Part shown: one piece after another, positions 7,542 to 34,684 of the stretch
Layout of the letters: the number at the start of each line of letters is the position of its first letter
Numbering within the stretch: the first letter of the stretch is position 1
Origin: Myxococcales bacterium
GTDB taxonomy: Bacteria; Myxococcota_A; Polyangia; Haliangiales; Haliangiaceae
Assembly (NCBI GenBank): GCA_016794545.1
Contig: JAEUJX010000233.1
Coordinates: forward strand, 1 to 38,672
Direction: 5' to 3'
Length of the DNA: 38,672 nt
Position numbers and translations under genes: made by a program
Notes under the pieces: model-generated
What the model was told of the DNA's origin: nothing
Seen by the model: only the letters and a program-made list of their open reading frames with translations
The model's database searches: none

Positions 7542-9131
7542 ATGGACGGCAGGCTGGCCCGCGCGATCTTCGTGACCACGCTCGCGGTCTATCTGCTGAC
7601 CAGCGGGCGCGAGCCGCCGTGGAGCGACGCGAACATCCAGTACATGGCGGCCGAGAGCATGGTGCGCCGCGGCGCGGTCGACATCCCGAAGCCGTGGCCC
7701 GACGACATGCCGAAGGACGCCGAGGGCAAGTGGTACTCGACGTACCCGCTCCTCACGTCGGTCGTTCACTTCCCGGGTCTCGCGCTGCTCGCGATCGCAC
7801 CGCAGCAGGCGAAGGGCCTCGCGAAGCCGCTGACCTCGCACCTCGCGTGCTCGCTGTTCGGCGCGCTCGCGTGCGTGCTGTTCTTCCAGCTCTGCCGGCA
7901 GCGCCGGTTATCGCTGCGCGCGTCCTCGCTCGCGACCGCGATCGTCGCGTTCGGCACGACGACCTGGGTCTACGCGCACTACAGCTACTCCGAGATCGCG
8001 CAGACCGCCGCGTTCACCGGGCTCGTGCTGTGGTGGCTCCGCACCGACGACGATCCGACCAACCGGAGCGCGCGCTGGCTCGGGCTCTACGCGGGCTTCC
8101 TGTTCGCGACCAAGTACATCTACGCGCCCGGGATCGCGGTCGCGCTGCTCGTCCTCGCGTGGCGCCATCGCGCGCGGAAGCGGGGCCTCATCCCGCTCGC
8201 GCTCCACGCCGCCGCGCTCGCGGCGCCGTTCGTGATCGCGTCGATGGTGTTCAACTACCTCTGCTTCGGCTCGCCGCTCGCGACCGGCTACGCCGAGTAC
8301 TTCGACAAGTACTGGGGCGAGAACCCGATGACGCGCCTGTGGGCGATGTTCCTGTCGCCGGGCAAGAGCATCTTCCTCTACTCGCCGCCGCTCGTGCTCG
8401 GCATCGCCGCGCTGCCGCGGATGTGGCGCGAGCACCGCGCCGCGTGCGTCGCGATCCTCGCGGCCGGCGCACCGGTGCTACTCGTCTACAGCCGCTACAA
8501 GCTCAACGGCGACTGGGCGTGGGGGTATCGGTTCACCGTGTTCCTCGTGCCCGCACTCGCGCTCTCCGTCGGCGTGCTCGTGGATCGGTGGCTGCCGGCG
8601 CTGACGCGCCTCCGCAAGGCGGTGCTCGCGCTCGCGATCGCCGCGGGCGTGGCCGTGCAGCTCCTCGGCTGCGCGATCTACTGGGACCACTTCACGCGGA
8701 TCTCGCAGGACGTGCGCATCGCGTGGCTGGGCTCGCCGAACCGCTCGGGCGCGATCATCCCGCAGCGCGCCGACGGCCGGTGCGACGGCTGCTTCGAGGA
8801 CGTGCACCAGCTCGAGTGGTTGCCGCCGTTCCAGCCGATCGTCGGCCAGGCGTGGCTGCTGCGCTCGATCGCGACCGACGCCTCGGCCGAGGAGGCCGAG
8901 GCGAACGCGCCGTGGCACCGCTACACCTCGGCGACGTTTCCGATCAAGAGCAGCTACGACCGCGCGCGCCTCGACTGGTGGGGCATGCTCTGGATCAAGG
9001 ATCATCCCCAGACGCGCACGCTCGGCATCGCGCTGCTCGTGCTGTTCCTCGGCGGCACCGTGGCCGGCGTCAGTCTCTGGCGACGGGCTTTGCGACCGCC
9101 GCCACCCGCCGATCCGCCGCCGGCAGGATGA
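7542..9131 (+). CDS. Multi-pass membrane glycosyltransferase, GT39/ArnT-like
   Basis: The 529-residue product has an N-terminal hydrophobic helix followed by an Asp-containing first loop (REPPWSDANIQYMAAESM) and about ten further membrane spans. This is the layout of polyprenyl-phosphate-sugar dependent glycosyltransferases (GT-C fold; PMT, ArnT and related families). These transfer a mannose or other sugar from a lipid carrier on the outer face of the inner membrane. A soluble loop of about 100 residues near the C-terminus contains CDGC, and a last helix precedes a Pro-rich tail. The ATG at 7542 is preferred over upstream in-frame codons, since those overlap the divergent methyltransferase. 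The sugar and acceptor are unknown. The 3' end overlaps the convergent lipoprotein gene by 62 bases. Confidence 0.78.
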   Translation: MDGRLARAIFVTTLAVYLLTSGREPPWSDANIQYMAAESMVRRGAVDIPKPWPDDMPKDAEGKWYSTYPLLTSVVHFPGLALLAIAPQQAKGLAKPLTSHLACSLFGALACVLFFQLCRQRRLSLRASSLATAIVAFGTTTWVYAHYSYSEIAQTAAFTGLVLWWLRTDDDPTNRSARWLGLYAGFLFATKYIYAPGIAVALLVLAWRHRARKRGLIPLALHAAALAAPFVIASMVFNYLCFGSPLATGYAEYFDKYWGENPMTRLWAMFLSPGKSIFLYSPPLVLGIAALPRMWREHRAACVAILAAGAPVLLVYSRYKLNGDWAWGYRFTVFLVPALALSVGVLVDRWLPALTRLRKAVLALAIAAGVAVQLLGCAIYWDHFTRISQDVRIAWLGSPNRSGAIIPQRADGRCDGCFEDVHQLEWLPPFQPIVGQAWLLRSIATDASAEEAEANAPWHRYTSATFPIKSSYDRARLDWWGMLWIKDHPQTRTLGIALLVLFLGGTVAGVSLWRRALRPPPPADPPPAG

Positions 9132-9944: not shown

Positions 9945-11117
9945 TCAGGCCCCGCCCGGATCGACCATGCCGTCCGGGAGGGTCTCGTGGTCCACGAACG
10001 GCACGAACCCGTACGGCAGGTTGAACACCTCCCACAGGCCGTGGAAGAACTTCTTCGCGGGTTTCGAGCGCTTCTCGAACAGCCAGTCGCAGAACCCCTG
10101 GGCGTTGAAGCTGATGCCGATGTAGCTGTGCTTGCTCTCGCGGTAGCGCGGGTACCCGAGCGGCGGCTCGGGCTTGTAGCCGTTGCTGCCGTAGCCGACC
10201 GCCACGTCGATGAACCGGAAGATCGTCCCGTACCGCAGGGTGCGCAGGCGCTCGAACGCCCCGAGGTGGAGCGCGAGCATGTAGGTCTGGCCGGTGTAGT
10301 CCTCGGCGACGTTGACATTCCCGCCCTCGAGCTGATCCCAGTACGCCTGGGTCGGCGAGTACTGGACGCGGAAGTCGATCAGCTCGTCGAGCCGCGGCCA
10401 TAGCGACATCGCGACCGCGAGCCCGGCGCCGAGCGTGTTGAACGTGAAGTCGCCGTAGCTGAACTCGTAGTAGAAGCCGTCCTTGATCTCGACCCCGAAG
10501 AACAGCAGCTCGGAGAGCCCCGACGCGATCAGCGTCGACGGCAGCCGGTCGAAGCCGCCCCACTGCACGAGCAGCTCGGTGCCGCCGCGCGCGAGCCCGT
10601 AGGTCGCCCACGCATGACCGAGCTTGTCGGCGCCGGCCGAGTAGCGGCGCGAGCCGAACCAGCCCTCGCGGTCGTTCCAGACCTTCCAGTTGCCGTCACC
10701 ACCCCACCGGAACTCGGACAGCGGCTTGTGCTGCCGGTACCACGCGAAATAGGTCCAGGTGGTGAATGCCCCATAGATGCCGGCGAGGGTCAGGCCGGCG
10801 GCGAGCTTGCGGCTGGGCTGGGCCGGCTCGGCCCGCGCCTCGAGCACGGGAGTTGGGCCCTGGTCCAACCACGGCGTGGGGGCGGGGTTGTCTCGAACTG
10901 TGGCGTTCGGATCATGGGGAGACCCCGGAGCTACCCACCCTCCGACGGGATCGGCCACCGTGCGCTGGTGCAACACCGCGATCAGCAACAGGGCCGTCAG
11001 GCCGGTCCGCACGGCCCGCCAGATCTCATGGGGGATGGGTAATGACAAGCGCGGACCCTCAACTTTCCGAGGTTCGGTGACCGGGGTACGGGTGAGGTGG
11101 CAAGATGCGTCAACCAA
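9945..11117 (-). CDS. DUF2279 (YfiM-like) predicted envelope protein
   Basis: The product (up to 390 residues) contains the DUF2279 core DKLGHAWATYGLARG, followed by hydrophobic helices and FFGVEIKDGFYYEFSYGDFTFNTLGA. Family members are small predicted envelope proteins of unknown function (E. coli YfiM), and this one has a much longer C-terminal region. A hydrophobic export segment (VRTGLTALLLIAVLHQ) lies about 35 residues from the ATG at 11117. A TTG at 11048 would place it nearer the N-terminus, so the true start is uncertain. A second hydrophobic segment (AGLTLAGIYGAFTTWTYFAW) precedes the core. The protein is probably anchored in or exported across the inner membrane. Its role and the meaning of its pairing with the Tiki-like lipoprotein are unknown. 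Confidence 0.75.
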   Translation of the reverse strand: MVDASCHLTRTPVTEPRKVEGPRLSLPIPHEIWRAVRTGLTALLLIAVLHQRTVADPVGGWVAPGSPHDPNATVRDNPAPTPWLDQGPTPVLEARAEPAQPSRKLAAGLTLAGIYGAFTTWTYFAWYRQHKPLSEFRWGGDGNWKVWNDREGWFGSRRYSAGADKLGHAWATYGLARGGTELLVQWGGFDRLPSTLIASGLSELLFFGVEIKDGFYYEFSYGDFTFNTLGAGLAVAMSLWPRLDELIDFRVQYSPTQAYWDQLEGGNVNVAEDYTGQTYMLALHLGAFERLRTLRYGTIFRFIDVAVGYGSNGYKPEPPLGYPRYRESKHSYIGISFNAQGFCDWLFEKRSKPAKKFFHGLWEVFNLPYGFVPFVDHETLPDGMVDPGGA

Positions 11118-11241: not shown

Positions 11242-12597
11242 GTGACCACCCATACCTTGTGGGTGATTTGTTACTGCCTCGCGATGGTGGTGTTCGTGAA
11301 CCGCTACATCGCCGGCATCGCGATGAGGGTGGCTCGCCGGAAGACCTGGGACGAGACCCGGGATGATTACGAGCCGACCGTGACGGCCGTGATCCCCATG
11401 TTCAACGAGGGATCCGCCATCAAGGAGACCCTCCAGAGCCTCCTCGACTCGGACTACCCGGCCGACAAGCTCAGCATCATCTGCATCGACGACTGCTCGA
11501 CCGACGACAGCTACGAGCAGGCCCGCGAGATCGCGAAGAAGTCGGGCGGACGCCTCAAGGTCATCCGCAACCGGACCAACCAGGGCAAGCGCCGCTCGAT
11601 CATCCGGGCGACCCGGGAGGCCGAGTCCGAGATCATCGTGTCCGTCGACTCGGACGTGGTGGTCGATGCCGACGCGGTCCGCCAGCTGACCCGCCGGTTC
11701 ACCGACGACAAGATCGCTGCGGTCGGCGGCTGGGTCGACGTCCGCAACAAGCAGGAGAACTGGCTCACCCGGATGCAGGTGACCAAGTACTGGTACTCCT
11801 ACTTCTTCTTGAAGAACCTCGAGTGGGGGTTCAAGCGCGTGATGTGCCTGTCGGGCTGCCTCACCGCCTACCGGCGTCACGTCCTCATCGAGCTCGAGCC
11901 GGTGCTCGAGAACCGCGAGGTCCTCGGGGTCCCCATCAAGTACGGCGAGGACCGGTTCCTGACCCGCCAGATCGTGAAGGCCGGCTACCTCACCACGATG
12001 ACCCTGGCGGCCCGGTGCCGCACGTTCGTGCCGTCGACCCTGTCGGCGTACTTCAGCCAGCAGCTGCGCTGGCGCCGCTCGAACATCGTCGACTACGCCG
12101 GGGCGATGTCGCACGTCTGGCGCCTCAACCCGCTGCTCGCGATTCACTACCTGTCGCAGTTCGCGCTGCTGCTGGTCTACCCGATCGCCGTCATCCGCGC
12201 GCTGATCGCGTTCAAGTTCTTCCCGGCGCTCGTGCTCCACATTGAGGTCGTCGTCGTCCTCGGCCTCATCTATCGCTGGCGCACGCGGAAGTACCCCAAG
12301 GAGGAGCGCGTCAACGCGCTCGCCTTCGTGCCGCTGTCGCTGCTCATGCCGGTGACGTACGCGCTGCTCACGCCGCTCGCGCTGTTCACGCTCGACACGT
12401 CGAGCTGGGAGACGCGCAACCACGAGGCCACGGCTTCGGACGCCAGCGAGGCGGTCGCCGAGGCGGGGCTGGCGGTTCCGGAGCAGGTCGTCGAGGTCGT
12501 CAGCGCGCCGCTGCCGGTCTCCGCGATCCCGGAGGCGATCACCGCCACGGGCCGTCTGGCGCGCCAGAATTCGCATGCAGAAATGCCTGCGGCTTGA
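11242..12597 (+). CDS. Processive family 2 glycosyltransferase (polysaccharide synthase)
   Basis: The 451-residue product begins with a GTG codon and an N-terminal membrane helix. A cytosolic GT2 domain follows with every hallmark of processive β-glycan synthases of the hyaluronan/chitin/PNAG type: DD at 83-84, DSD at 136-138, the acceptor-site SGC at 204-206, GED at 235-237, and QQLRW (Q/RxxRW) at 273-277. About three to four membrane helices follow (~residues 300-400). It should polymerise a nucleotide-activated sugar and pass the chain through its own membrane channel. The sugar cannot be deduced. The C-terminal tail is Ala/Val/Glu-rich and probably disordered. The adjacent adaptor gene starts 12 bases downstream, indicating an operon for synthesis and export. 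Confidence 0.9.
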   Translation: MTTHTLWVICYCLAMVVFVNRYIAGIAMRVARRKTWDETRDDYEPTVTAVIPMFNEGSAIKETLQSLLDSDYPADKLSIICIDDCSTDDSYEQAREIAKKSGGRLKVIRNRTNQGKRRSIIRATREAESEIIVSVDSDVVVDADAVRQLTRRFTDDKIAAVGGWVDVRNKQENWLTRMQVTKYWYSYFFLKNLEWGFKRVMCLSGCLTAYRRHVLIELEPVLENREVLGVPIKYGEDRFLTRQIVKAGYLTTMTLAARCRTFVPSTLSAYFSQQLRWRRSNIVDYAGAMSHVWRLNPLLAIHYLSQFALLLVYPIAVIRALIAFKFFPALVLHIEVVVVLGLIYRWRTRKYPKEERVNALAFVPLSLLMPVTYALLTPLALFTLDTSSWETRNHEATASDASEAVAEAGLAVPEQVVEVVSAPLPVSAIPEAITATGRLARQNSHAEMPAA

Positions 12598-12609
12598 TAA
12601 GGACGGCCC

Positions 12610-13410
12610 ATGGAAACGCGACCCTCGACCAACCGGCCCAAGTTCTGGACCGCGTTGCAGCCCACGATCGTCCGGGTCTACAAGGTCGCGGGCCTGGTCG
12701 CGCTGACCGCGATCCTCGTCGGGCTGCTCTCGTTCCTCGTCGTCAACGTGTTCTACTTCTTCGACCACACGTGGGTTCGCCCGGTGGTGCTGTCGCCGAC
12801 CCACCACAAGGTCGTCGAGGCCTCGACGCAGCTCGCGGACGCCAAGCTTCGCGCGGCCCAGATCGAGACCGAGCGCGTCGAGATCGATGCGGCGCTCGCG
12901 CAGATCGAGCGCGAGATCGCCTCGGATGATCGGTTCCTCGCCGAGGTCGGCACCACCGCCGACAAGCCGACCACGAACGACGCCTGGATGCTCCACCGCG
13001 AGGTCGAGAAGGCGAAGCTCGACAAGGAGAACGCGCTCGGGCGCAAGGTCCCGCTCAACCAGCGGCTCGAGAGCCTGAAGCTGCGCAAGGCCGATCAGGA
13101 GGCCCTCGTGAAGCGCCTCGAGGCCTCGCCGTACCTGAAGGCGGTCAACAACAAGGTCGTGCTCGCGTTCGTGCCGTACCAGAACCTCCGCAACGTGAAG
13201 ATCGGCACCAAGCTCTACGGCTGTGCGTGGGGCCTGGTCGCCTGCTCGAACGTGGGCAAGGTCACGGGTGTTCTCGAGGGTGAAGTGGACAACGTCCACC
13301 CCCACGACGAGAGCATCCAGCGCGGCGTGATGGTCGAGATCGACGTCTCCACGTCGGCGGCCGGCGAGCGCGTGCTGTTCGCCGGCGGCAAGCCCCTGTT
13401 CCTGTTTTGA
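12610..13410 (+). CDS. HlyD-like periplasmic adaptor partnered with the GT2 synthase
   Basis: The 266-residue product has a cytosolic N-terminus, one membrane helix (~26-51) and a long charged coiled-coil hairpin (~70-172). Its C-terminal β-barrel-like region (KVVLAFVPYQNLRNVKIGTKLYGC...GKVTG...QRGVMVEIDV) has the pattern of HlyD/membrane-fusion proteins. C205 and C212 may form a periplasmic disulfide. It lacks an obvious lipoyl half-motif pair and is shorter than typical type I secretion adaptors. Together with the synthase it resembles the synthase-plus-adaptor arrangement of alginate (Alg8/Alg44) systems, though no PilZ domain is present here. An AAGGA sequence 7 bases before the ATG is a good ribosome site. 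No outer-membrane export channel lies in the window. Confidence 0.82.
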   Translation: METRPSTNRPKFWTALQPTIVRVYKVAGLVALTAILVGLLSFLVVNVFYFFDHTWVRPVVLSPTHHKVVEASTQLADAKLRAAQIETERVEIDAALAQIEREIASDDRFLAEVGTTADKPTTNDAWMLHREVEKAKLDKENALGRKVPLNQRLESLKLRKADQEALVKRLEASPYLKAVNNKVVLAFVPYQNLRNVKIGTKLYGCAWGLVACSNVGKVTGVLEGEVDNVHPHDESIQRGVMVEIDVSTSAAGERVLFAGGKPLFLF

Positions 13411-15386: not shown

Positions 15387-18300
15387 ATGAGTGATGACAA
15401 GACCCGTCTTGGAGTGACCCCGGACCCGGGCGGTGCCCAACCGCCGCAGGCCGCTGACCCGCAGCTCAAGGCCGCCGCCGCGGGCAGTGGCTCGCTGCGT
15501 ACTCCGAGTGACGCCACGATCGTCCTCGGCGACGAGCCGAAGCGCACCAAGACGCTGTCGGGTGTTCCGCCGATCGCGGCCACACCGTCCACGCACAAGG
15601 GACCGCACGACGCGACGGTGGTCCTCGGGCACGCAGGACCTGCGCCCACGCCGCCGCACACCATGCCGAATGGCACGCCACCGAGCACGCCCGCGATGGC
15701 GCCGCCGCAGGCCAACACCCTCCAGGGCAAGGCAGGCGGGACGCGCAACGAGCACTCGGGCCTCCTGCCGCGCACCGGCCGCAGCGCGTGGGACTCCTCG
15801 TTCGAGGCCGAGACCACGGGTGTCCACGCGACCAGCGCGATGCCGACCCCGGGCGTCCGCATCAACCAGTACGAGATCATCAAGCTGCTCGGCGAAGGCG
15901 GCATGGGCAGCGTGTTCCTCGCCCGCGACCTCCGGCTCGGCCGCCGCGTCGCGATCAAGGTCCTGCAGTCCCAGCAGGAGGAGCTGACCCAGCGCTTCCT
16001 CGTCGAGGCGCGCACGACCGCGCGCTGCCAGCACGACAACATCGTCGTGATCTACGAGGTCGGCGAGCACGGCGGCGCGCCGTACATCGTCCTCGAGTTC
16101 CTGAACGGCAAGCCGCTCACCGAGTACACGAAGGACGGCCAGAAGCTGCCCTACGCGCGCGCGGTCGAGATCATGGTCCAGATCCTCAAGGCGCTGCAGT
16201 GCGCGCACGAGCACGGCATCGTTCACCGCGACCTCAAGCCCGACAACATCTTCGTGATGGACTCCGGCAACCTGAAGGTCCTCGACTTCGGCATCGCGAA
16301 GGTGCTGCAGGGCGGTGCGTCGGAGAACCAGGGCAGCAGCAAGTCGGCGGCGGCGGTCCGCATGCCGAGCCCGCTCGAGCTCGCGACCGGCACGAACACC
16401 AGCCTGACCCGGGTCGGCACGATCATGGGCACGCTGAAGTACATGTCCCCCGAGCAGTGGGGCATCGGCATCGAGATCGATCACCTGACCGACATCTGGG
16501 CGTGCGGCATCCTGCTGCACCGGATGATCTGCGGGCGCCACCCGCTGCACCCGCTCGATGGCAACCAGCTCGTCGTGACGGCGATGCTCGAGCTGCCCAT
16601 GCCGTCGATGCAGGAGGCCGCGCCGCCCGACGTGCCGCGCGAGCTGATCCAGATCGTCGATCGCTGCCTGCTCAAGATGAAGGAGCAGCGCTGGCAGTCG
16701 GCCGAGGAGCTGCTCCGCGCGCTCGAGCCGTTCCTGCCCGGCCGCCGCGCCACCAAGGAGCTGCAGATCGACGAGAGCCCGTACGCGGGTCTGTCGTCGT
16801 TCCAGGAAGGCGACGCCGACAAGTTCTTCGGCCGCAACCGCGAGATCGCGGCGATGGTGACCCGCATCCGCGACCGGCCGCTGATGGCCGTCGTCGGCAG
16901 CTCCGGCGCCGGCAAGAGCTCGTTCGTCCGCGCCGGTCTCGTGCCCGCCCTGAAGCGCTCCGGCGAGACGTGGGAGACGCTCGTCATCCGCCCCGGCCGC
17001 TCGCCGATCGAGGCGCTCGCCGGCGTGATCCAGCCGATGGTCGCGACCGCGGCGAACCTCGCCGACGAGATGGAGGAGCAGAAGAAGCTCGTCGAGAAGC
17101 TGCGCAAGGAGCCGGGTCACCTCGGCCACGTGCTGCGCGGACGCGCGCGCCGCGACAACCGGCGCCTGCTCCTGTTCGTCGATCAGTTCGAGGAGCTGTT
17201 CACGATGACGGCGGACCCGGCGGAGCGCGCCGCGTTCATGGCATCGCTGTCGGCCGTCGCCGACGACGCGACGAGCCCGCTGCGCGTCGTGCTGTCGATC
17301 CGCTCGGACTTCCTCGACCGCCTCGCCGAGGATCCGCAGTTCCTCGCCGAGCTCACGCAGGGCCTGTTCTTCCTCGGACCGCCGGGCCGCGACGGTCTGC
17401 GCGAGGCGATCACGAACCCGGCGGAGATGGCCGGCTTCGCGTTCGAGCTGCCCGCCACCGTCGAGGACATGCTCGACACCCTCGAGACCACGCCGGGCGC
17501 GCTGCCGCTCCTCCAGTTCGCCGCGAGCAAGCTGTGGGAGTCGCGCGACAAGGCCCGCAAGCTACTGACGCACAACGCGTACACCCAGATGGGTGGCGTG
17601 ACCGGTGCGCTCGCGAGCCACGCGGACCACGTCGTCCGCGAGCTCGGCCAGGCCAAGCAGCCGCTGGTCCGCGCGATCATGCTGCGCCTGGTCTCGCCGG
17701 AGCGCACGCGCGCGATCGTGCCGATGGCCGAGCTGCGCGAGCTGTCGCGCGAGGTCGGCGAGGTGCAGCGGCTCGTCGATCAGATGGTCGATGCGCGCCT
17801 CCTCGTCGTGCAGACGATCGAGGGCGGCAAGGGATCGACGGTCGAGATCGTGCACGAGTCGCTCGTGCAGAACTGGCCGACGCTCCGGCGCTGGCTCGAC
17901 GAGAACCAGGACGACGCCGAGCTGATCGATCAGCTGCGCACCGCGGCTCGCCAGTGGGCGCAGAAGGGCCGCGACGTCGGCCTCCTGTGGCGCGGCGACA
18001 CCGCCGAGGAAGCGAAGAAGTTCAAGAAGCGCTACAAGGGCCCGCTGTCCGACGTGGAGCGCGCCTTCCTCGAGGCCGTGGTCACCTACGAGGTGCAGCA
18101 GGCGCGCAAGCGGCGCAGCCTGGTGATCGCGGGCTTCGTGGCTCTCGGCGCGGTGGTGATCGCGGCGATGGTCGCCCTTGTCATCATCCAGAAGTCGCGC
18201 GCCACCGCCACCGCGAACGCGAAGCGCGCCGAGGAAGCGAAGGTCGAGGCCGTGGCCGCGCAGAAGACCGCCGAGGAGGCGCTCGCCGCCGCCCAGGAGA

Positions 18301-18650
18301 AGGAGCGCCAGCGCATCGCCGCCACGGCCGCGCAGAAGACCGCCGAGACCAAGACGACGGTGGTCACCCAGCAGCTCGGCGTCGCGGAGCAGGATCTCGC
18401 GAAAAAGAACCAGGAGCTCGAGGCCCAGATCCTCGTGAGCAAGGAGAACGAGGAGAAGGCGAAGGTCGCCGCGGCGCGTGCCGAGGCGGAGTCGCGCAAG
18501 GCCATCGCCGCGGCCGAGGAAGCGCAGAAGGCCCGCGACAAGGCCGAGGCCGAGCGCGTGCGTGCAGAGAACGCCGAGAGGGCCCAGAAGGCCCGCGCGG
18601 ATCGGTTCGAAGCGCAGATGGGTTCGAAGTCGATCGAAGAGCTGAAGTAA
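15387..18650 (+). CDS. Ser/Thr protein kinase - nSTAND1 NTPase - TM - coiled-coil protein
   Basis: The 1087-residue product starts with a ~160-residue Pro/Thr-rich, probably disordered region holding three DxT-x-(x)-LG motifs (T6, T44, T77). The kinase domain (~162-450) has GEGGMGSV, the ATP lysine K191, HRDLKPDN with D282, DFG at 300-302 and SPE at 354-356, so it should be active. The DFG-to-SPE segment (about 57 residues) is long for this family. A STAND-type NTPase follows (~466-890), with Walker A GSSGAGKSS (504-512) and Walker B LLLFVDQFEEL (~594-604). One membrane helix (~911-933) is followed by ~150 residues of Ala/Glu/Lys coiled coil. STAND kinases of this class usually end in WD40 repeats; none is present. 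It is the first gene of a likely three-gene unit with two envelope proteins. Confidence 0.93.
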   Translation: MSDDKTRLGVTPDPGGAQPPQAADPQLKAAAAGSGSLRTPSDATIVLGDEPKRTKTLSGVPPIAATPSTHKGPHDATVVLGHAGPAPTPPHTMPNGTPPSTPAMAPPQANTLQGKAGGTRNEHSGLLPRTGRSAWDSSFEAETTGVHATSAMPTPGVRINQYEIIKLLGEGGMGSVFLARDLRLGRRVAIKVLQSQQEELTQRFLVEARTTARCQHDNIVVIYEVGEHGGAPYIVLEFLNGKPLTEYTKDGQKLPYARAVEIMVQILKALQCAHEHGIVHRDLKPDNIFVMDSGNLKVLDFGIAKVLQGGASENQGSSKSAAAVRMPSPLELATGTNTSLTRVGTIMGTLKYMSPEQWGIGIEIDHLTDIWACGILLHRMICGRHPLHPLDGNQLVVTAMLELPMPSMQEAAPPDVPRELIQIVDRCLLKMKEQRWQSAEELLRALEPFLPGRRATKELQIDESPYAGLSSFQEGDADKFFGRNREIAAMVTRIRDRPLMAVVGSSGAGKSSFVRAGLVPALKRSGETWETLVIRPGRSPIEALAGVIQPMVATAANLADEMEEQKKLVEKLRKEPGHLGHVLRGRARRDNRRLLLFVDQFEELFTMTADPAERAAFMASLSAVADDATSPLRVVLSIRSDFLDRLAEDPQFLAELTQGLFFLGPPGRDGLREAITNPAEMAGFAFELPATVEDMLDTLETTPGALPLLQFAASKLWESRDKARKLLTHNAYTQMGGVTGALASHADHVVRELGQAKQPLVRAIMLRLVSPERTRAIVPMAELRELSREVGEVQRLVDQMVDARLLVVQTIEGGKGSTVEIVHESLVQNWPTLRRWLDENQDDAELIDQLRTAARQWAQKGRDVGLLWRGDTAEEAKKFKKRYKGPLSDVERAFLEAVVTYEVQQARKRRSLVIAGFVALGAVVIAAMVALVIIQKSRATATANAKRAEEAKVEAVAAQKTAEEALAAAQEKERQRIAATAAQKTAETKTTVVTQQLGVAEQDLAKKNQELEAQILVSKENEEKAKVAAARAEAESRKAIAAAEEAQKARDKAEAERVRAENAERAQKARADRFEAQMGSKSIEELK

Positions 18651-29719: not shown

Positions 29720-29771
29720 TCCGTTATCGTTGACAGGTCGTCCGCCGGGGGTGTAGACAGGTATCCGTTAT
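29720..29771 (+). promoter_or_regulatory. Promoter region of the sulfate-assimilation operon with nested direct repeats
   Basis: A perfect -35 hexamer TTGACA (29730-29735) is followed after 18 bases by TAGACA (29754-29759). That places the transcript start close to the ATG at 29770. Two direct repeats flank and overlap it in an A-B-B-A order: TCCGTTAT at 29720-29727 and 29764-29771, and GACAGGT at 29732-29738 and 29756-29762. They could be regulator sites. Confidence 0.45.
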
Positions 29772-30489
29772 GGCGGATGCCCCGATCGACGTCCCCGCGG
29801 CTGCCGCCGAGCTCGAAGGCGCGTCCGCGGTCGACATCCTCCGCTGGGCCAGCCAGCGCCTCGCTCCGAAGCTGACGTTCGCGACGGGCTTCGGCGCCGA
29901 GGGCTGCGTGATCATCGACCTGATCGCGAAGCACCACCTGCCGATCGATCTGTTCACGCTCGACACCGGCGTGCTGTTCCCCGAGACGTACGCGCTGTGG
30001 CGCCGGCTCGAGGACACCTACGGCGTGACGATCCGCCCCGTGCGCCCAGCGCTGTCGATCGACGCGCAGGCGGCGACGCTCGGCCCCGCGCTGTGGACCC
30101 GCGATCCGGATCGCTGCTGCGACCTGCGCAAGGTGAAGCCGCTCCGGCAGGCGCTCACCGGCTTCGACGCGTGGATCACCGCGATCCGCCGCGAGCAGAC
30201 GCCCGAGCGCGCGACCGCCAGGGTCGTCGAGCACGACCAGAAGTTCGGCCTCCTCAAGATCAACCCGCTCGTCCGGTGGTCTCACGACGACGTGTGGGCG
30301 CACATCTACGCGAACGACGTCCCGTACAACGAGCTCCACGACCAGGGCTTCCCGTCGATCGGCTGCCAGCCGTGCACGTCGGCGGTGGCGCCCGGCGAGG
30401 ACGCGCGCGCGGGCCGGTGGCGCGGCGCGGGCAAGAAGGAGTGCGGGCTGCACGTGATCCAGCCGCCGTCCCGGGACGAGGCGCGATGA
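29770..30489 (+). CDS. cysH: Adenylylsulfate (APS/PAPS) reductase CysH, iron-sulfur type
   Basis: The 239-residue product is a PAPS/APS reductase that reduces adenylylsulfate to sulfite using thioredoxin. It carries the four Fe-S cysteines of the APS-reductase class, C116-C117 and C199-x2-C202, which bind a [4Fe-4S] cluster and are absent in E. coli-type PAPS reductases. The catalytic Cys is C225 in KKECGLH. The nucleotide-binding signature near the N-terminus (FATGFGAEGCVIIDL) and LDTGVLFPETY are standard. The class suggests APS as substrate, although some members also use PAPS. It is the first gene of a five-gene unit, its stop overlapping the next start (ATGA). Confidence 0.93.
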   Translation: MADAPIDVPAAAAELEGASAVDILRWASQRLAPKLTFATGFGAEGCVIIDLIAKHHLPIDLFTLDTGVLFPETYALWRRLEDTYGVTIRPVRPALSIDAQAATLGPALWTRDPDRCCDLRKVKPLRQALTGFDAWITAIRREQTPERATARVVEHDQKFGLLKINPLVRWSHDDVWAHIYANDVPYNELHDQGFPSIGCQPCTSAVAPGEDARAGRWRGAGKKECGLHVIQPPSRDEAR

Positions 30490-31565
30490 CCGAGATCGTC
30501 GATCGAGTGACGCGCGCTCCGGTGGCGCTCGCCGCGCGCGCCGCGAACCTGCCGAGGATCACGCTCGACGCGCGCGAGCTCGCGGACCTCGAGCTGATCG
30601 CGACCGGCGCGGCCCGCCCGCTCACCGGCTTCGTCGGCAAGGCCGACTATCACTCGATCCTCACGACCAGCCGCCTCGCGAACGGCGCCGTGTGGTCGAT
30701 CCCCCTCACGCTCGCGCTCGGCGACGACGTTCTCTCCTCCGCGTCGCCGGGCGCCGAGCTCTCCTTGTACGACGCGGCGGGCCGCCTGCGCGGCATCCTG
30801 ACCGTGAAGGACGTGTTCGAGCGCGACACCGCGCGCGAGCTCGACGTGGTCTACGGCACGCACGACCCGGCGCACCCGGGCGTCGCGTACCTCGTGTCGC
30901 GCCCGCGCAAGCTCGTCGGCGGTGACGTCGAGGTGCTCGCGTTCCGCCCGCTTGGCGAGCGCGAGCCGAAGAACCGCGCGACCGACGGCTTCATCCTGTG
31001 GTTCACCGGCATGTCGGGCGCGGGCAAGTCGACCCTGTCCGCGGCCGTCGCGAGCCAGCTCGACGGCGAGCGCCGCATCGAGGTGCTCGACGGCGACGAG
31101 GTGCGGACGCACCTCTCGAAGGGCCTCGGGTTCTCGCGCGAGGACCGCGACACCAACGTCCACCGCATCGCCTTCGTCGCGCGCACCCTCGCCGCGCACG
31201 GCGTCGGCGTGATCACCGCCGCGATCTCGCCCTATGCCGAGACGCGCCGCGCCGTCCGCGCACTCGCCGAGGAGCGCGGTCTCGCCTTCATCGAGGTTCA
31301 CGCGCACAGCTCGCTCGAGGCGCTCGTCGCGCGCGACGTGAAGGGCCTGTACGAGAAGGCGCTCGCCGGCGAGGTCACGCACTTCACCGGCGTCTCGGAT
31401 CCCTACGAGGCCCCGGAATCGCCCGACGTCCGCGTCCACACCGACGTCGAGACGATCGAGCAGAGCACCGCGAAGATCATCGAAGCGCTGCGCGCGCGCG
31501 GGCTCGTCCGCTCGCCGGTGCGGACCGCGACCACCAACGGCGTGCGCCCGCACGCAGGAGCCTGA
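30486..31565 (+). CDS. cysC: PUA-like (ATP-sulfurylase N-domain) - APS kinase fusion
   Basis: The 359-residue product has two parts. Residues ~1-158 match the N-terminal PUA-like domain of ATP sulfurylase (LELIATGAARPLTGFVGKADY, SIPLTLALG, VVYGTHDPAHPGVAYL, LVGGDVEVL). Residues ~166-340 are a complete APS kinase, with P-loop GMSGAGKST (175-183), LDGDEVR (201-207), a conserved NVHRIAFVA segment, RDVKGLY (283-289) and FTGVSDPYE (300-308). The ATP-sulfurylase catalytic domain that normally lies between or beside these, with its QxRNPxHxxH motif, is missing. The protein should phosphorylate APS to PAPS but cannot make APS. The PUA part may be a structural or regulatory remnant. The start overlaps the cysH stop. 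Confidence 0.9.
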   Translation: MTEIVDRVTRAPVALAARAANLPRITLDARELADLELIATGAARPLTGFVGKADYHSILTTSRLANGAVWSIPLTLALGDDVLSSASPGAELSLYDAAGRLRGILTVKDVFERDTARELDVVYGTHDPAHPGVAYLVSRPRKLVGGDVEVLAFRPLGEREPKNRATDGFILWFTGMSGAGKSTLSAAVASQLDGERRIEVLDGDEVRTHLSKGLGFSREDRDTNVHRIAFVARTLAAHGVGVITAAISPYAETRRAVRALAEERGLAFIEVHAHSSLEALVARDVKGLYEKALAGEVTHFTGVSDPYEAPESPDVRVHTDVETIEQSTAKIIEALRARGLVRSPVRTATTNGVRPHAGA

Positions 31566-31566
31566 C

Positions 31567-32166
31567 GTGAGCACTGCCCTGTACCCCGTGTTCCTCAAGC
31601 TCGACGGCCTCCCGGTCGTCGTCGTGGGCGGTGGCCCCGTCGCGGCGGGCAAGCTGGACGGCCTGCTCGCCGCCGGTGCGCGCGTGCTCGTCGTCGCGCC
31701 GAAGATCACCCACGCGATCCGCGTGCAGGCGGGCCCGCGGGTCGTGCTCGTCGAGCGCGCGTTCGTGCCGTCGGATCTCGACGGCGCGCGCTGGGTCGTC
31801 GCCGCCGCGCCACCCGAGATCAACCAGCAGGTCGCGGCGGCGGCCGCCGAGCGCGGGCTGTTCGTGAACGCCGTCGACGCTACGACCGCGGCAACGGCGG
31901 ATCTCGGCGGCGTGATCCGGCGCGGCGAGGTCGAGGTCGCGATCTCGACGGGCGGCACCGCACCGGCGCTCGCCGGCCTGTTGCGCGAGGCGCTCGACTC
32001 GCTGCTGCCGTCGGAGCTCGACCGGTGGGTCGATGTCGCGAAGCGCGCGCGCGAGGAGTGGAAGCGCGCCGGCGTCCCGATCACGAAGCGCCGCTCGCTG
32101 CTCCTCCGCACGCTGGTCCAGCTCTACCGCGCGGACATCGTCGCGCTCGAACGAGGTGCCGCGTGA
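31567..32166 (+). CDS. Precorrin-2 dehydrogenase (siroheme synthase N-domain, Met8/SirC-type)
   Basis: The 199-residue product (GTG start one base after the previous stop) has the NAD-binding motif VVVVGGGPVAAGK (17-29), NAVDA with D104 corresponding to the catalytic Asp of the CysG N-domain, and STGGTAPALA (127-136). It oxidises precorrin-2 to sirohydrochlorin and may also insert iron, as in Met8/CysG. SirC-type proteins of this length are sometimes dehydrogenase only, so a separate ferrochelatase may exist elsewhere. The Ser phosphorylated in CysG (S128) appears here as Thr. The gene lies between the APS kinase and the methyltransferase, with its stop overlapping the next start, so siroheme is supplied by the same operon as the sulfite reductase that needs it. 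Confidence 0.9.
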   Translation: MSTALYPVFLKLDGLPVVVVGGGPVAAGKLDGLLAAGARVLVVAPKITHAIRVQAGPRVVLVERAFVPSDLDGARWVVAAAPPEINQQVAAAAAERGLFVNAVDATTAATADLGGVIRRGEVEVAISTGGTAPALAGLLREALDSLLPSELDRWVDVAKRAREEWKRAGVPITKRRSLLLRTLVQLYRADIVALERGAA

Positions 32167-32927
32167 CCGGCTTCGTCTCTCTCGTCGGCGCCGGCCCCGG
32201 CGATCCCGAGCTGCTCACGCTGCGCGCGCTCCGGCGCCTGCGCGATGCGGACCTCGTGCTGAACGACGCGCTCGTGCAGGAGGATCTCCTGCAGCTCGCG
32301 CCGAAGGCGCAGCGGTTCTACGTCGGCAAGCGCGCCGGCCGGCACTCGATCGACCAGGAGGGTATCCACCGCCTGTTGGTCCGCGCCGCGAAGCGCGGGC
32401 AGAAGGTCGTGCGCCTCAAGTGCGGCGACCCGTTCGTGCTCGGCCGCGGCGGCGAGGAAGCGCTCGCGCTCGAGGCGGCGGGCGTCGCCTACGAGGTGGT
32501 CCCCGGCATCAGCTCGGCGCTCGCCGCGCCGGCGCTCGCCGGCATCCCCGTCACGCACCGGGGGCTCGCGTCGGCGTTCGCCGTGGTCTCGGGCCACGCC
32601 GAGAGCTCGTACGCGCCGATCCTCGACGGCATCGCGCCCGGCTCGCTCACGCTCGTCGTGCTGATGGGCGTGCGCACGCGCGGCGCGATCGCGGCGCACC
32701 TGATCGGCCGCGGCTGGGCGGCGCACACGCCGGCCGCGATCATCCACGGCGCATCGCACCCCGGCTCGTTCACCTGGATCGGCGACCTCGCCACGCTCGG
32801 CGAGGCGTCGTTCGAGACCGACCTGCCCGGCATCCTCGTCATCGGCGAGGTCGTGAAGCTCTCCAGTCAGATCCGTTCGGAGCAACAGAGCGCGGCGCCC
32901 GGTGCCGCCGAGAGGTTCTTCCTATGA
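32163..32927 (+). CDS. cobA: Uroporphyrinogen-III C-methyltransferase (SUMT)
   Basis: The 254-residue product methylates uroporphyrinogen III at C-2 and C-7 to give precorrin-2, the first dedicated step to siroheme. Family signatures are VGAGPGDPELLTL (8-20), CGDPFVLGRGGEE (87-99), VPGISSA (113-119) and PVTHRGLA (129-136). The length matches stand-alone SUMT. The GTG start overlaps the preceding stop (GTGA). Together with the preceding gene it replaces the single fused CysG of enterobacteria. It could be named sumT or cysG C-domain; the context (sulfite reductase next) indicates siroheme rather than cobalamin as the main destination. Confidence 0.93.
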   Translation: MTGFVSLVGAGPGDPELLTLRALRRLRDADLVLNDALVQEDLLQLAPKAQRFYVGKRAGRHSIDQEGIHRLLVRAAKRGQKVVRLKCGDPFVLGRGGEEALALEAAGVAYEVVPGISSALAAPALAGIPVTHRGLASAFAVVSGHAESSYAPILDGIAPGSLTLVVLMGVRTRGAIAAHLIGRGWAAHTPAAIIHGASHPGSFTWIGDLATLGEASFETDLPGILVIGEVVKLSSQIRSEQQSAAPGAAERFFL

Positions 32928-34684
32928 GCGTTGTCGATCTCCCGCCTCCTCCCCCGCCCGGCCGTCTCGGGTTCGCGCGCCACGAGGACGTCGATCTGTT
33001 CGTCCAGAAGCTCGAGGACTTCGAGACCGGCAAGCTGTCGGCCGACGACTGGCGCGGCTTCCGCCTCCTGAACGGCGTCTACGGCCAGCGCCAGGACGGC
33101 GTGATGATGATCCGCGCGAAGCTGCCCGGCGGCTTCGTCACGCCCGCGCAGCTCGAAGCGTTGGCGGTCGTCGCCGAGAGGTTCGGCGGCGGCAAGGGCC
33201 ACGTCACGACGCGGCAGAACGTGCAGTACCACTTCGTGCCGATGGCCGACGTCGAGACCGCGCTGCGGATCCTCGCCGACAGCGGCATCACCACGAAGGA
33301 GGCGTGCGGTCACTCGGTGCGCAACTGGACGTGCTGCCCGTTCGCGGGCGTCGCGGCCGACGAGCCGTTCGATCCGACGCCATACGTCGAGGCGCTCGCG
33401 CGCCACCTGCTGCGCGGCCCGTACAGCTCGACGCTGCCGCGCAAGCTGAAGCCGTCCCTCGGCGGGTGCTGCGGCACCGACTGCTCGCAGGCGTTCATCA
33501 ACGACCTCGGCTTCCTGGCCACGACGCGCGACGGCGCGCCCGGCTTCAAAGTGCTCGCCGGCGGCGGCCTGTCCACGCTGCGGCGCTCGGCCCTCACCGT
33601 CGAGGAGTTCGTGCCGCTCGCCGAGACGCTCGAGGCCGCCGACGCGGTCGTGCGGGTGTTCCACCGGATCGGAAACCGCAACAACAAGGCGAAGGCCCGC
33701 CTCAAGTGGGCGATCGACAAGGTCGGTCCCGAGGCGTTCCTCGCCGAGTACCGCGCGGAGCGCGAGAAGATCCGCGGCGAGGGCGGCGTGCCGCTCGTGC
33801 TGCCGCCGCAGCCCGTGCCGCCCGCGGCGGGGTCGCCGAGCGCGCGAGGCGGCAAACGTCTGCTCGCCCAGGTCAACGAGCCCGTTCCGGGCTACGCCGA
33901 GTGGGCGCAGCACAACGTGCGCACGCAGAAGCAGCACGGCTTCTCGTCGGTCGTGATCCGCCTCGTCCTCGGCGACATCACCGCCGCGCAGCTGCGCGGC
34001 CTGATCCCGCTGATCACGCAGTACGGCGAGGGCGAGCTGCGCACCACGAACGAGCAGAACCTCGTGCTGCGCTACGTGCCCGACGCGCGGCTGCCGTCGC
34101 TGCACCGCGAGCTCGTGCGGCTCGGCCTCGCGCTCGGCGGCGCGAACACGCTGGCCGATGTGGTGTCGTGCCCCGGCGCGTCGTCGTGCAAGCTCGCCGT
34201 CACGGCATCGCGCGGCCTCGGCGGCCAGCTCACCGAGCTGCTCGACCGCCGCCCCGACCTCGTCACCGCGGCCCACGGGCTCGACGTCAAGGTGTCGGGC
34301 TGCCCGCACGGCTGTGGCCAGCACTACATCGCGGGCATCGGCTTCCAGGGCGGCATGCGCAAGCTCGCCGGGCGCCCCGCGCCGCAGTACCTCGTGTACG
34401 TCGGCGGCGGCATCAAGGCCGACAAGGCCGAGTTCGGCCGGCTGATCGGCAAGGTGCCGGCACGGCGCGCCGGGGCCACGCTCGAGCGCCTGCTCGACTT
34501 CTACATCGCGTCCGGTGCGACGTCCCGCGACTTCTGGAGCACCGTTCCGGCCGACCAGCTGAAGGCGCAGATCGCCGATCTCGAGAAGCTCGCCGACGCC
34601 GACGCCGTCGAGGCCGACTTCATCGACCTCGGCGAGCAGCGCGCGTTCGAGGTGGTGAGCGGCGAGGGCGAATGCGCCTCGTAG
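32924..34684 (+). CDS. sir: Ferredoxin-type nitrite/sulfite reductase, likely assimilatory sulfite reductase
   Basis: The 586-residue product contains the two-fold repeat of the nitrite/sulfite reductase family. The siroheme/[4Fe-4S] motif is C416-x5-C422 ... C460-x3-C464 (CPGASSC, CPHGC). Other family patterns include GGKGHVTTRQNVQYH (~89-103), RNWTCCP, and RTTNEQNLVLRYVP in the second half. It should reduce sulfite to sulfide by six electrons, probably from ferredoxin, as no flavin domain is present. Nitrite reductase is the main alternative from sequence alone, but the operon with cysH and cysC favours sulfite. An extra Cys-rich segment GGCCGTDCSQAF (~180-191) occurs in the first half. The ATG overlaps the previous stop. 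Confidence 0.9.
   Translation: MSVVDLPPPPPPGRLGFARHEDVDLFVQKLEDFETGKLSADDWRGFRLLNGVYGQRQDGVMMIRAKLPGGFVTPAQLEALAVVAERFGGGKGHVTTRQNVQYHFVPMADVETALRILADSGITTKEACGHSVRNWTCCPFAGVAADEPFDPTPYVEALARHLLRGPYSSTLPRKLKPSLGGCCGTDCSQAFINDLGFLATTRDGAPGFKVLAGGGLSTLRRSALTVEEFVPLAETLEAADAVVRVFHRIGNRNNKAKARLKWAIDKVGPEAFLAEYRAEREKIRGEGGVPLVLPPQPVPPAAGSPSARGGKRLLAQVNEPVPGYAEWAQHNVRTQKQHGFSSVVIRLVLGDITAAQLRGLIPLITQYGEGELRTTNEQNLVLRYVPDARLPSLHRELVRLGLALGGANTLADVVSCPGASSCKLAVTASRGLGGQLTELLDRRPDLVTAAHGLDVKVSGCPHGCGQHYIAGIGFQGGMRKLAGRPAPQYLVYVGGGIKADKAEFGRLIGKVPARRAGATLERLLDFYIASGATSRDFWSTVPADQLKAQIADLEKLADADAVEADFIDLGEQRAFEVVSGEGECAS

Follow-up and report, generated by a model that had tools for sequence, protein, structure and literature searches.

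The subject of this analysis is a pair of adjacent genes on the forward strand of contig JAEUJX010000233.1 from a Myxococcales bacterium of the Haliangiaceae (assembly GCA_016794545.1), the whole 38,672-nucleotide stretch of which was analysed and is referred to here as the window. The first gene (11242-12597, GTG start) encodes a putative 451-residue polysaccharide synthase of glycosyltransferase family 2 (GT2), and the second (12610-13410, ATG start) a 266-residue protein, termed here the adaptor, that is predicted to resemble membrane-fusion proteins. The 12 bases between them include the sequence AAGGA (12599-12603), six bases before the adaptor ATG, which we read as its likely ribosome binding site. 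An earlier note, made from the sequence alone, had described the pair as a minimal module for an exopolysaccharide with no other polysaccharide genes around it, and the latter claim holds at the Pfam level: 32 genes were called in the window and all were scanned, and the synthase is the sole match to a polysaccharide family. Eight of the 32 have no significant Pfam match, including the adaptor and a multi-span membrane protein (7542-9131) that on visual inspection may be a GT-C enzyme.

The synthase matches the GT2 models of Pfam (best E 3e-32), with Chitin_synth_2 lower, and the earlier description of it as a GT2 enzyme with all of the processive motifs is borne out. The first catalytic aspartates D83-D84 (codons at 11488-11493), the D136-S-D138 motif (11647-11655), the G235-E-D237 motif (11944-11952) and Q273-QLRW277 (12058-12072) are invariant in all six aligned copies, the five from relatives being 71-87% identical to that of the window. 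A GT2 domain combined with the DD, DSD, GED and Q(Q/R)xRW motifs places the protein among the processive GT2 enzymes, in the branch containing NodC, hyaluronan synthases and chitin synthases; G(E/D)D is present in 36 of the 37 synthases compared, PgaC being the exception. With NodC the synthase shares 31.5% identity in direct comparison (E 9e-46), the GED and QQLRW motifs, and a similar hydrophobic pattern, with segments at residues 1-19, 298-318, 320-346 and 357-384 against the three spans, interface helix and cytoplasmic C-terminus mapped for NodC (PMC4132801). NodC is also the top NCBIfam model (TIGR04242), but the score of 186 bits lies far below the curated cut-off of 550, and nodC adjoins nodB and nodI and has no adaptor gene beside it. 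The PgaC-PgaD system for poly-N-acetylglucosamine offers another likeness, in that an N-acetylglucosamine (GlcNAc)-using GT2 enzyme is annotated with a small membrane protein, PgaD, as its partner, but PgaC is only 24% identical to the window synthase (E 3e-21, direct comparison), PgaD has 137 residues, and export is annotated as proceeding through the porin PgaA. Because its nearest relatives are NodC and the hyaluronan and chitin synthases, the enzyme likely makes a GlcNAc-containing polymer, from donors that would include UDP-GlcNAc. A structure model of the synthase built from six sequences was set aside (pLDDT, the predicted per-residue confidence, 47.9), and the product-length ruler of NodC (residues 19 and 349) was dropped, as the alignment is unreliable at both sites; no chain-length claim is drawn.

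That the polymer is hyaluronan-like, with GlcNAc joined to a uronic acid, strikes us as improbable. It is true that the best PDB matches to the synthase are hyaluronan synthases (top sequence E 2e-18), and that its WETR at residues 389-392 (12406-12417) aligns with the gating-loop WGTR, in the context WGTRG, of the Chlorella virus hyaluronan synthase (CvHAS); WxTR is present in 35 of 35 family synthases, NodC has WLSR at that place, and a copy on a Paraburkholderia plasmid has the identical WGTR. In three loci (L049, L091 and L096) the synthase also has UDP-sugar dehydrogenase genes nearby, which could mean a uronic-acid polymer, and to that extent they tell against our reading of the product. 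Pfam finds no such dehydrogenase in any of the window's 32 genes, however, and many loci of the sister form described below have PIG-L and WbqC genes instead. The window synthase, moreover, has E at the position at which the substitution G455A inactivates CvHAS (PMC11750622), and NodC, which is the closer relative, makes chitooligosaccharides (PMC4132801).

The adaptor has a single hydrophobic span by hydropathy at residues 19-53 (12664-12768), and an AlphaFold model built from eight sequences (mean pLDDT 73.8) gives an anchor helix at residues 12-52, a coiled-coil hairpin of helices 66-113 and 123-171 (12805-13122), and a strand-rich, barrel-like part at residues 183-259 (13156-13386). The first ten PDB rows returned by Foldseek are chains of MacA or MacAB-TolC, Spr0693, EmrA and ZneB, with E-values from 6.6e-6 to 0.018; we take ZneB to be a membrane-fusion protein, and the identities of the chains within the matched complexes are presumed, in part from their length. 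An N-terminal anchor, an alpha-hairpin, a strand-rich domain and adaptor-like best fold matches are thus all found in the model, albeit at low TM-scores (0.15-0.29). VIA-align recovered only generic coiled-coil hairpins over residues 60-182, which speaks neither for nor against an adaptor fold. The spacing, the single span and the hairpin described in the earlier note agree with these results. The window adaptor has no significant match in Pfam (E up to 1), NCBIfam or the PDB sequences, and no HlyD-type Pfam model (HlyD_3, HlyD_D23 and kin) appears for 30 adaptor homologues among the families listed (25 of 36). Together with the low TM-scores, it weighs against assignment to the membrane-fusion proteins that the adaptor matches neither any HlyD-type model nor BgsB significantly (hhalign probability 0.2% for BgsB), and that comparison with Escherichia coli MacA yields 67 columns at E 0.074 and a probability of 0.8%. 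When profiles of the adaptor and of the TolC-like family introduced below were compared with PDB sequences, only weak coiled-coil matches resulted. Within its own family the adaptor is kept at 58-83% identity in the loci of eight relatives. The family was also sought in viruses: an adaptor alignment search found no relatives on viral contigs, and a phage search with the synthase returned distant GT2 proteins only.

The cysteine pair C205 and C212 (13222-13245), which are the sole cysteines of the window adaptor and form a CX6C motif, is invariant in the 30 adaptor homologues chosen for comparison. Among paired adaptors, 29 of 29 have exactly two cysteines from the span onward; in two of these no span start was detected, and the whole frame has only two. 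A broader claim, covering the full length of long adaptors, was abandoned, because their open frames encode up to four further cysteines ahead of the called start; the open frame of one short adaptor (Sfar_G022) has seven. Among three distant adaptors CX6C is kept in two and replaced by CX7C in one. In the model the two residues lie on strands flanking a short turn of low confidence. The redox-sensitive clasp suggested in the earlier note is not supported here; the invariance of the motif fits a structural disulfide better than a redox switch.

To ask how often the two genes travel together, 95 relatives were searched with a synthase threshold of E <= 1e-60, and adaptor rows were merged to 54 places, of which 24 encode short adaptors like that of the window, 27 a long form, and 3 distant adaptors. 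The adaptor is present in 28 of the genomes and the synthase in 30, with both in 27 (Fisher p 2.8e-19, relatedness ignored), that is, in 27 of the 31 genomes having either. A synthase immediately precedes the short adaptor in 18 of 24 cases, 17 as intact same-strand pairs and one (G006) with its synthase cut by a contig end; long adaptors lie within 3 kb of a synthase in 26 of 27 cases, 22 of them divergently, one of the 26 being a second copy whose nearby synthase is shared with another adaptor. Separation of the two genes in most relatives, which the earlier note had named as a refutation, is thus not seen, and the synthase and adaptor are most likely a functionally linked pair. The alternative association raised there, with ABC-type secretion systems, was not seen: no type I exporter occurs in the window or among the labelled neighbours (not every neighbour was annotated), although ABC-2 genes lie near in L053 and L092.

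The two-gene layout, taken in the earlier note as the basic form, is not supported as such, for elsewhere the family comes with a TolC-like gene and sugar genes. A long-hairpin adaptor is present in the window's own genome (contig C765, locus L042) and in other Myxococcota, and its common locus encodes a companion exported protein, a TolC-like protein and the long adaptor, followed divergently by the synthase, WbqC, a PIG-L deacetylase and sometimes a GlmS-like protein. Among 46 loci, with neighbours labelled by Pfam on one member per cluster, the TolC-like cluster is found in 15, the companion in 13, WbqC in 13, PIG-L in 12 and the GlmS-like gene in 4, the last three being neighbours of a GlcNAc type that favour the proposed substrate. 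The companion has no Pfam match, so the name LamG-like, given by eye, was dropped. One locus (L047 of G036) has genes for a heparinase-type lyase, synthase, adaptor, TolC-like protein and companion in a row, and in two lineages (G100 and G306) the TolC-like and companion proteins are fused in one frame. A whole-genome search of the 95 genomes found the TolC-like family in 19, and these are precisely the genomes that encode a long adaptor, whereas the nine with short adaptors only lack the family; by arithmetic such a coincidence would have odds of one in 6.9 million if the genomes were independent, which they are not. The window itself has no TolC-like gene by profile search, as distinct from the long-form loci; its genome encodes two TolC-like proteins of the long-form family. 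Farther afield, the Paraburkholderia plasmid (L096:10800-17739) has on one strand genes for an EAL protein, an adaptor with CX6C kept, a putatively TolC-like protein, a UDP-sugar dehydrogenase, a GH16 protein and the synthase. In a 377-genome sample of the phylum the adaptor occurs in 11 genomes, four of them additional (G100, G306, G327 and G331), and G331 has a TolC-like gene, an adaptor and a divergent GT2 gene. The three most distant adaptors sit with TolC-like genes, and two of them adjoin another GT2 gene. As a side observation, a further adaptor group occurs with TolC-like genes in L050, L058, L059 and L093, with a divergent GT2 gene of a KQRxRW type beside it in the last three; it may represent a different type of synthase with a conduit of the same kind.

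Short and long adaptors differ consistently in the hairpin, the span of which was measured from the post-membrane W..P to the FVPY motif. It is 128-129 residues in 10 of 11 short adaptors (80 in that of G017) and 217-243 in 17 of 18 long ones, with one not measured. A tip motif, [LM]I[DT], is present in all 18 long adaptors and in none of the 11 short ones, the window adaptor included; in the 12 long adaptors where its position was soundly measured it stands at 0.47-0.48 of the hairpin, and in 12 of 18 it is directly followed by R-x3-L-x6-A (11) or -S (1). This has the spacing of the TolC-binding motif RxxxLxxxxxxS, in which S143A of MacA keeps some activity (PMC3391258). The synthases carry a corresponding mark: a C-terminal PAA (codons at 12586-12594 in the window) ends 10 of 11 short-type synthases, none of 18 long-type and none of 6 without an adaptor, and could be a docking or turnover signal. 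Long adaptors also have long proline-rich tails before the span, and in 6 of 18 (L042, L045, L057, L073, L074 and L078) these contain T-x-V-[DT], a motif like those read by FHA domains; as it holds in only those six, the idea of a phospho-motif was rejected. In a tree with distant long adaptors as outgroup, the short (10) and long (17) adaptors are sister groups (support 90/80). A first tree, rooted on Paraburkholderia, had nested the short form within the long form, and was replaced because the better outgroup gives sister groups. Because the greater length is common to the adaptors of the outgroup, the long form and Paraburkholderia, shortening is the more economical explanation, and the window pair probably represents a reduced branch, with two parts only, within a family of synthase-adaptor-TolC exporters.

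Taking these observations together, we favour, with somewhat better than even confidence, a proposal in which synthase and adaptor form a membrane complex that makes a sugar polymer and passes it on, the long form as a three-part exporter and the short form without tip or channel. The synthase would add sugar units, most likely including GlcNAc from UDP-GlcNAc, at the cytoplasmic face, and the growing chain would be threaded through its few membrane helices. The adaptor, held by a one-span anchor and stiffened by one disulfide, would sit on the periplasmic side of the synthase, where it may help to complete or guard the exit and lead the chain into the periplasm. In the long form the docking tip of the longer hairpin would reach the adjacently encoded TolC-like outer-membrane channel, so that the three parts together would form an exporter driven by the synthase. 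Both the tip and a dedicated channel are missing from the short form, the product of which would therefore stay periplasmic or be handed to another outer-membrane exit. More tentatively, and with the balance of our judgement still short of even, these genes may define an undescribed exporter family: a synthase of the NodC/hyaluronan type would serve as the inner-membrane motor and, by way of a one-disulfide adaptor, drive a TolC-type conduit. In the window branch the adaptor would have been cut by about 90 residues, with loss of tip and channel, so that a GlcNAc polymer would be delivered to the periplasm.

The short pair might instead be a complete three-part exporter: like AcrA with its short hairpin, the adaptor could dock to a general-purpose channel of the TolC type, encoded at another locus. 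The window adaptor hairpin, of about 48 residues per arm in the model, is within the range of the adaptors of resistance-nodulation-division pumps. OEP matches over the Pfam cut-off occur in all ten genomes concerned (the window's own and the nine short-only genomes), at 6 to 37 stretches each, to which the window's genome adds its two TolC-like proteins of the long-form family; such ordinary OEP proteins are abundant enough in short-only genomes that a shared TolC is possible, and this stands against a periplasmic fate for the product. The missing [LM]I[DT] tip argues the other way, as does the poor conservation of the hairpin end among short adaptors, only one of 11 of which (S_G032) has a strict RxxxLxxxxxx(S/T), and on this evidence we think the general channel rather unlikely. 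A similar standing, doubtful yet worth weighing, is given to the view that the adaptor, rather than acting as a conduit, mostly serves the synthase as a structural or regulatory subunit, comparable to PgaD or the BcsB membrane anchor. Its single span and the want of a TolC-like partner in the nine short-only genomes would suit such a subunit, and NodC-type synthases are without the extra channel helices of chitin synthases, so that a partner helix could be needed (PMC4132801). The fold-level likeness of the adaptor to membrane-fusion proteins, in both hairpin and strand-rich part, and the TolC-like genes that accompany the long sister form point away from it and toward the proposed conduit.

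Other observations count against the proposed complex and its history. In six of 24 cases the short adaptor does not immediately follow a synthase: the contig has no synthase at all for the adaptors of G005 and G009 and for one copy from G011, those of G019 and G022 have the nearest synthase 9-13 kb away, and another in G011 is 4.5 kb from one, with ABC-2 sugar exporter genes between. Conversely, 13 of the 55 synthase places, including some at contig ends, lack an adaptor within 3 kb, and some adaptor-less synthases stand beside ATP-grasp or ABC-exporter genes. These gaps would be expected if the pair were a neighbourhood relic whose proteins do not cooperate, a reading we consider very improbable given that adjacency is kept across families in two arrangements (tandem in 17 short cases, divergent in 22 long) and that so few genomes have one gene without the other. 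The synthase tree requires three label changes to account for the short-type synthases, which are interspersed with adaptor-less ones, and the evolution of the partners is therefore not strictly joint. The adaptor of G327 (L092) has neither a synthase nor a TolC-like gene within about 9 kb. The TolC label is itself weak, with an OEP match in Pfam for 5 of 15 members (best E 0.0028) and no PDB sequence match, and that of the Paraburkholderia protein, which neither Pfam nor the profile matched, was given by position and reading. Finally, support for the sister-group tree is moderate, and parsimony is the ground for placing a loss in the short branch. Other surroundings of the family synthases were also noted: in L060, L061, L062 and L063 adaptor-less family synthases are divergent to genes of one cluster, the scanned member of which is an ATP-grasp protein, and in L053, L064 and L066 family synthases lie near ABC-2 sugar exporter genes, with a UDP-GlcNAc 2-epimerase gene also in L053 and L064.

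BgsBA of Sinorhizobium meliloti and Rhizobium etli, which makes a mixed-linkage beta-glucan, already provides a bicistronic unit in which a GT2 synthase is joined by a HlyD-like membrane-fusion protein (PMC9495663, PMC7902896). The differences are several: the gene order is reversed; BgsB matches Pfam HlyD models whereas the window adaptor does not, and has no profile match to BgsB; and BgsA, which makes a glucan and binds cyclic di-GMP through its C-terminus (PMC9495663), is 24% identical to the window synthase (R. etli BgsA, E 7e-11). A chain of synthase, HlyD-like adaptor and TolC, as in the long form, has been proposed for cyanobacterial cellulose as XcsA-XcsB-TolC (PMC12430437). XcsA, however, is a cellulose synthase with a PilZ domain, and the Xcs genes of T. 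vulcanus are scattered, in a model without experimental proof (PMC12430437), whereas the long-form synthase, adaptor and TolC-like genes are clustered. Both systems are closer precedents than alginate, to which the earlier note had turned and in which the synthase Alg8 is joined by the membrane-anchored adaptor Alg44. The observation made there that the adaptor has no PilZ domain of the Alg44 type agrees with our scans, in which no Pfam PilZ model matches synthase or adaptor at E up to 1, and no alginate-type partner family is found by Pfam among the window's genes. Its corollary, that control must be different, carries less weight, as BgsA is activated by cyclic di-GMP through a C-terminal domain that its authors term novel (PMC9495663) and the Paraburkholderia copy stands beside an EAL gene. 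By analogy, the family probably works like BgsBA and XcsAB-TolC even though it matches neither BgsB nor a HlyD model in sequence and has no PilZ domain by Pfam. No earlier description of the synthase-adaptor family was found in the literature covered, the open-licence PMC papers.

Several neighbours of the pair recur as well. The gene at 9945-11117 on the reverse strand encodes a predicted periplasmic lipoprotein with a DUF2279 domain by Pfam; its cluster occurs in eight loci including the window, and in close relatives it is kept beside the pair, divergent from the synthase, while in L056 it adjoins the adaptor with no synthase between. At 15387-18650 lies a Ser/Thr kinase fused to an nSTAND NTPase, the same cluster being found downstream of the adaptor in L035, L037, L038, L039 and L040, which may be simple synteny. 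Genes for sulphate assimilation at 29770-34684 (PAPS reductase, sulphurylase/APS kinase, siroheme genes and sulphite reductase) are unrelated to the pair.

It is not yet settled whether a polysaccharide synthase, acting by way of a membrane-fusion protein, can power a conduit of the TolC type; the cyanobacterial cellulose model is described in a 2025 review as lacking experimental validation, with its genes not in one operon (PMC12430437). The clustering of synthase, adaptor and TolC-like genes in several lineages, and their exact co-occurrence in the genomes searched, make this export design testable, and a single genome with both long and short versions provides a natural experiment on the purpose of the adaptor. 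The well-studied exopolysaccharide of Myxococcus xanthus is made by a Wzx/Wzy pathway (PMC7484181), and the pair described here would add to the Myxococcota a likely GlcNAc-based, synthase-dependent polysaccharide.

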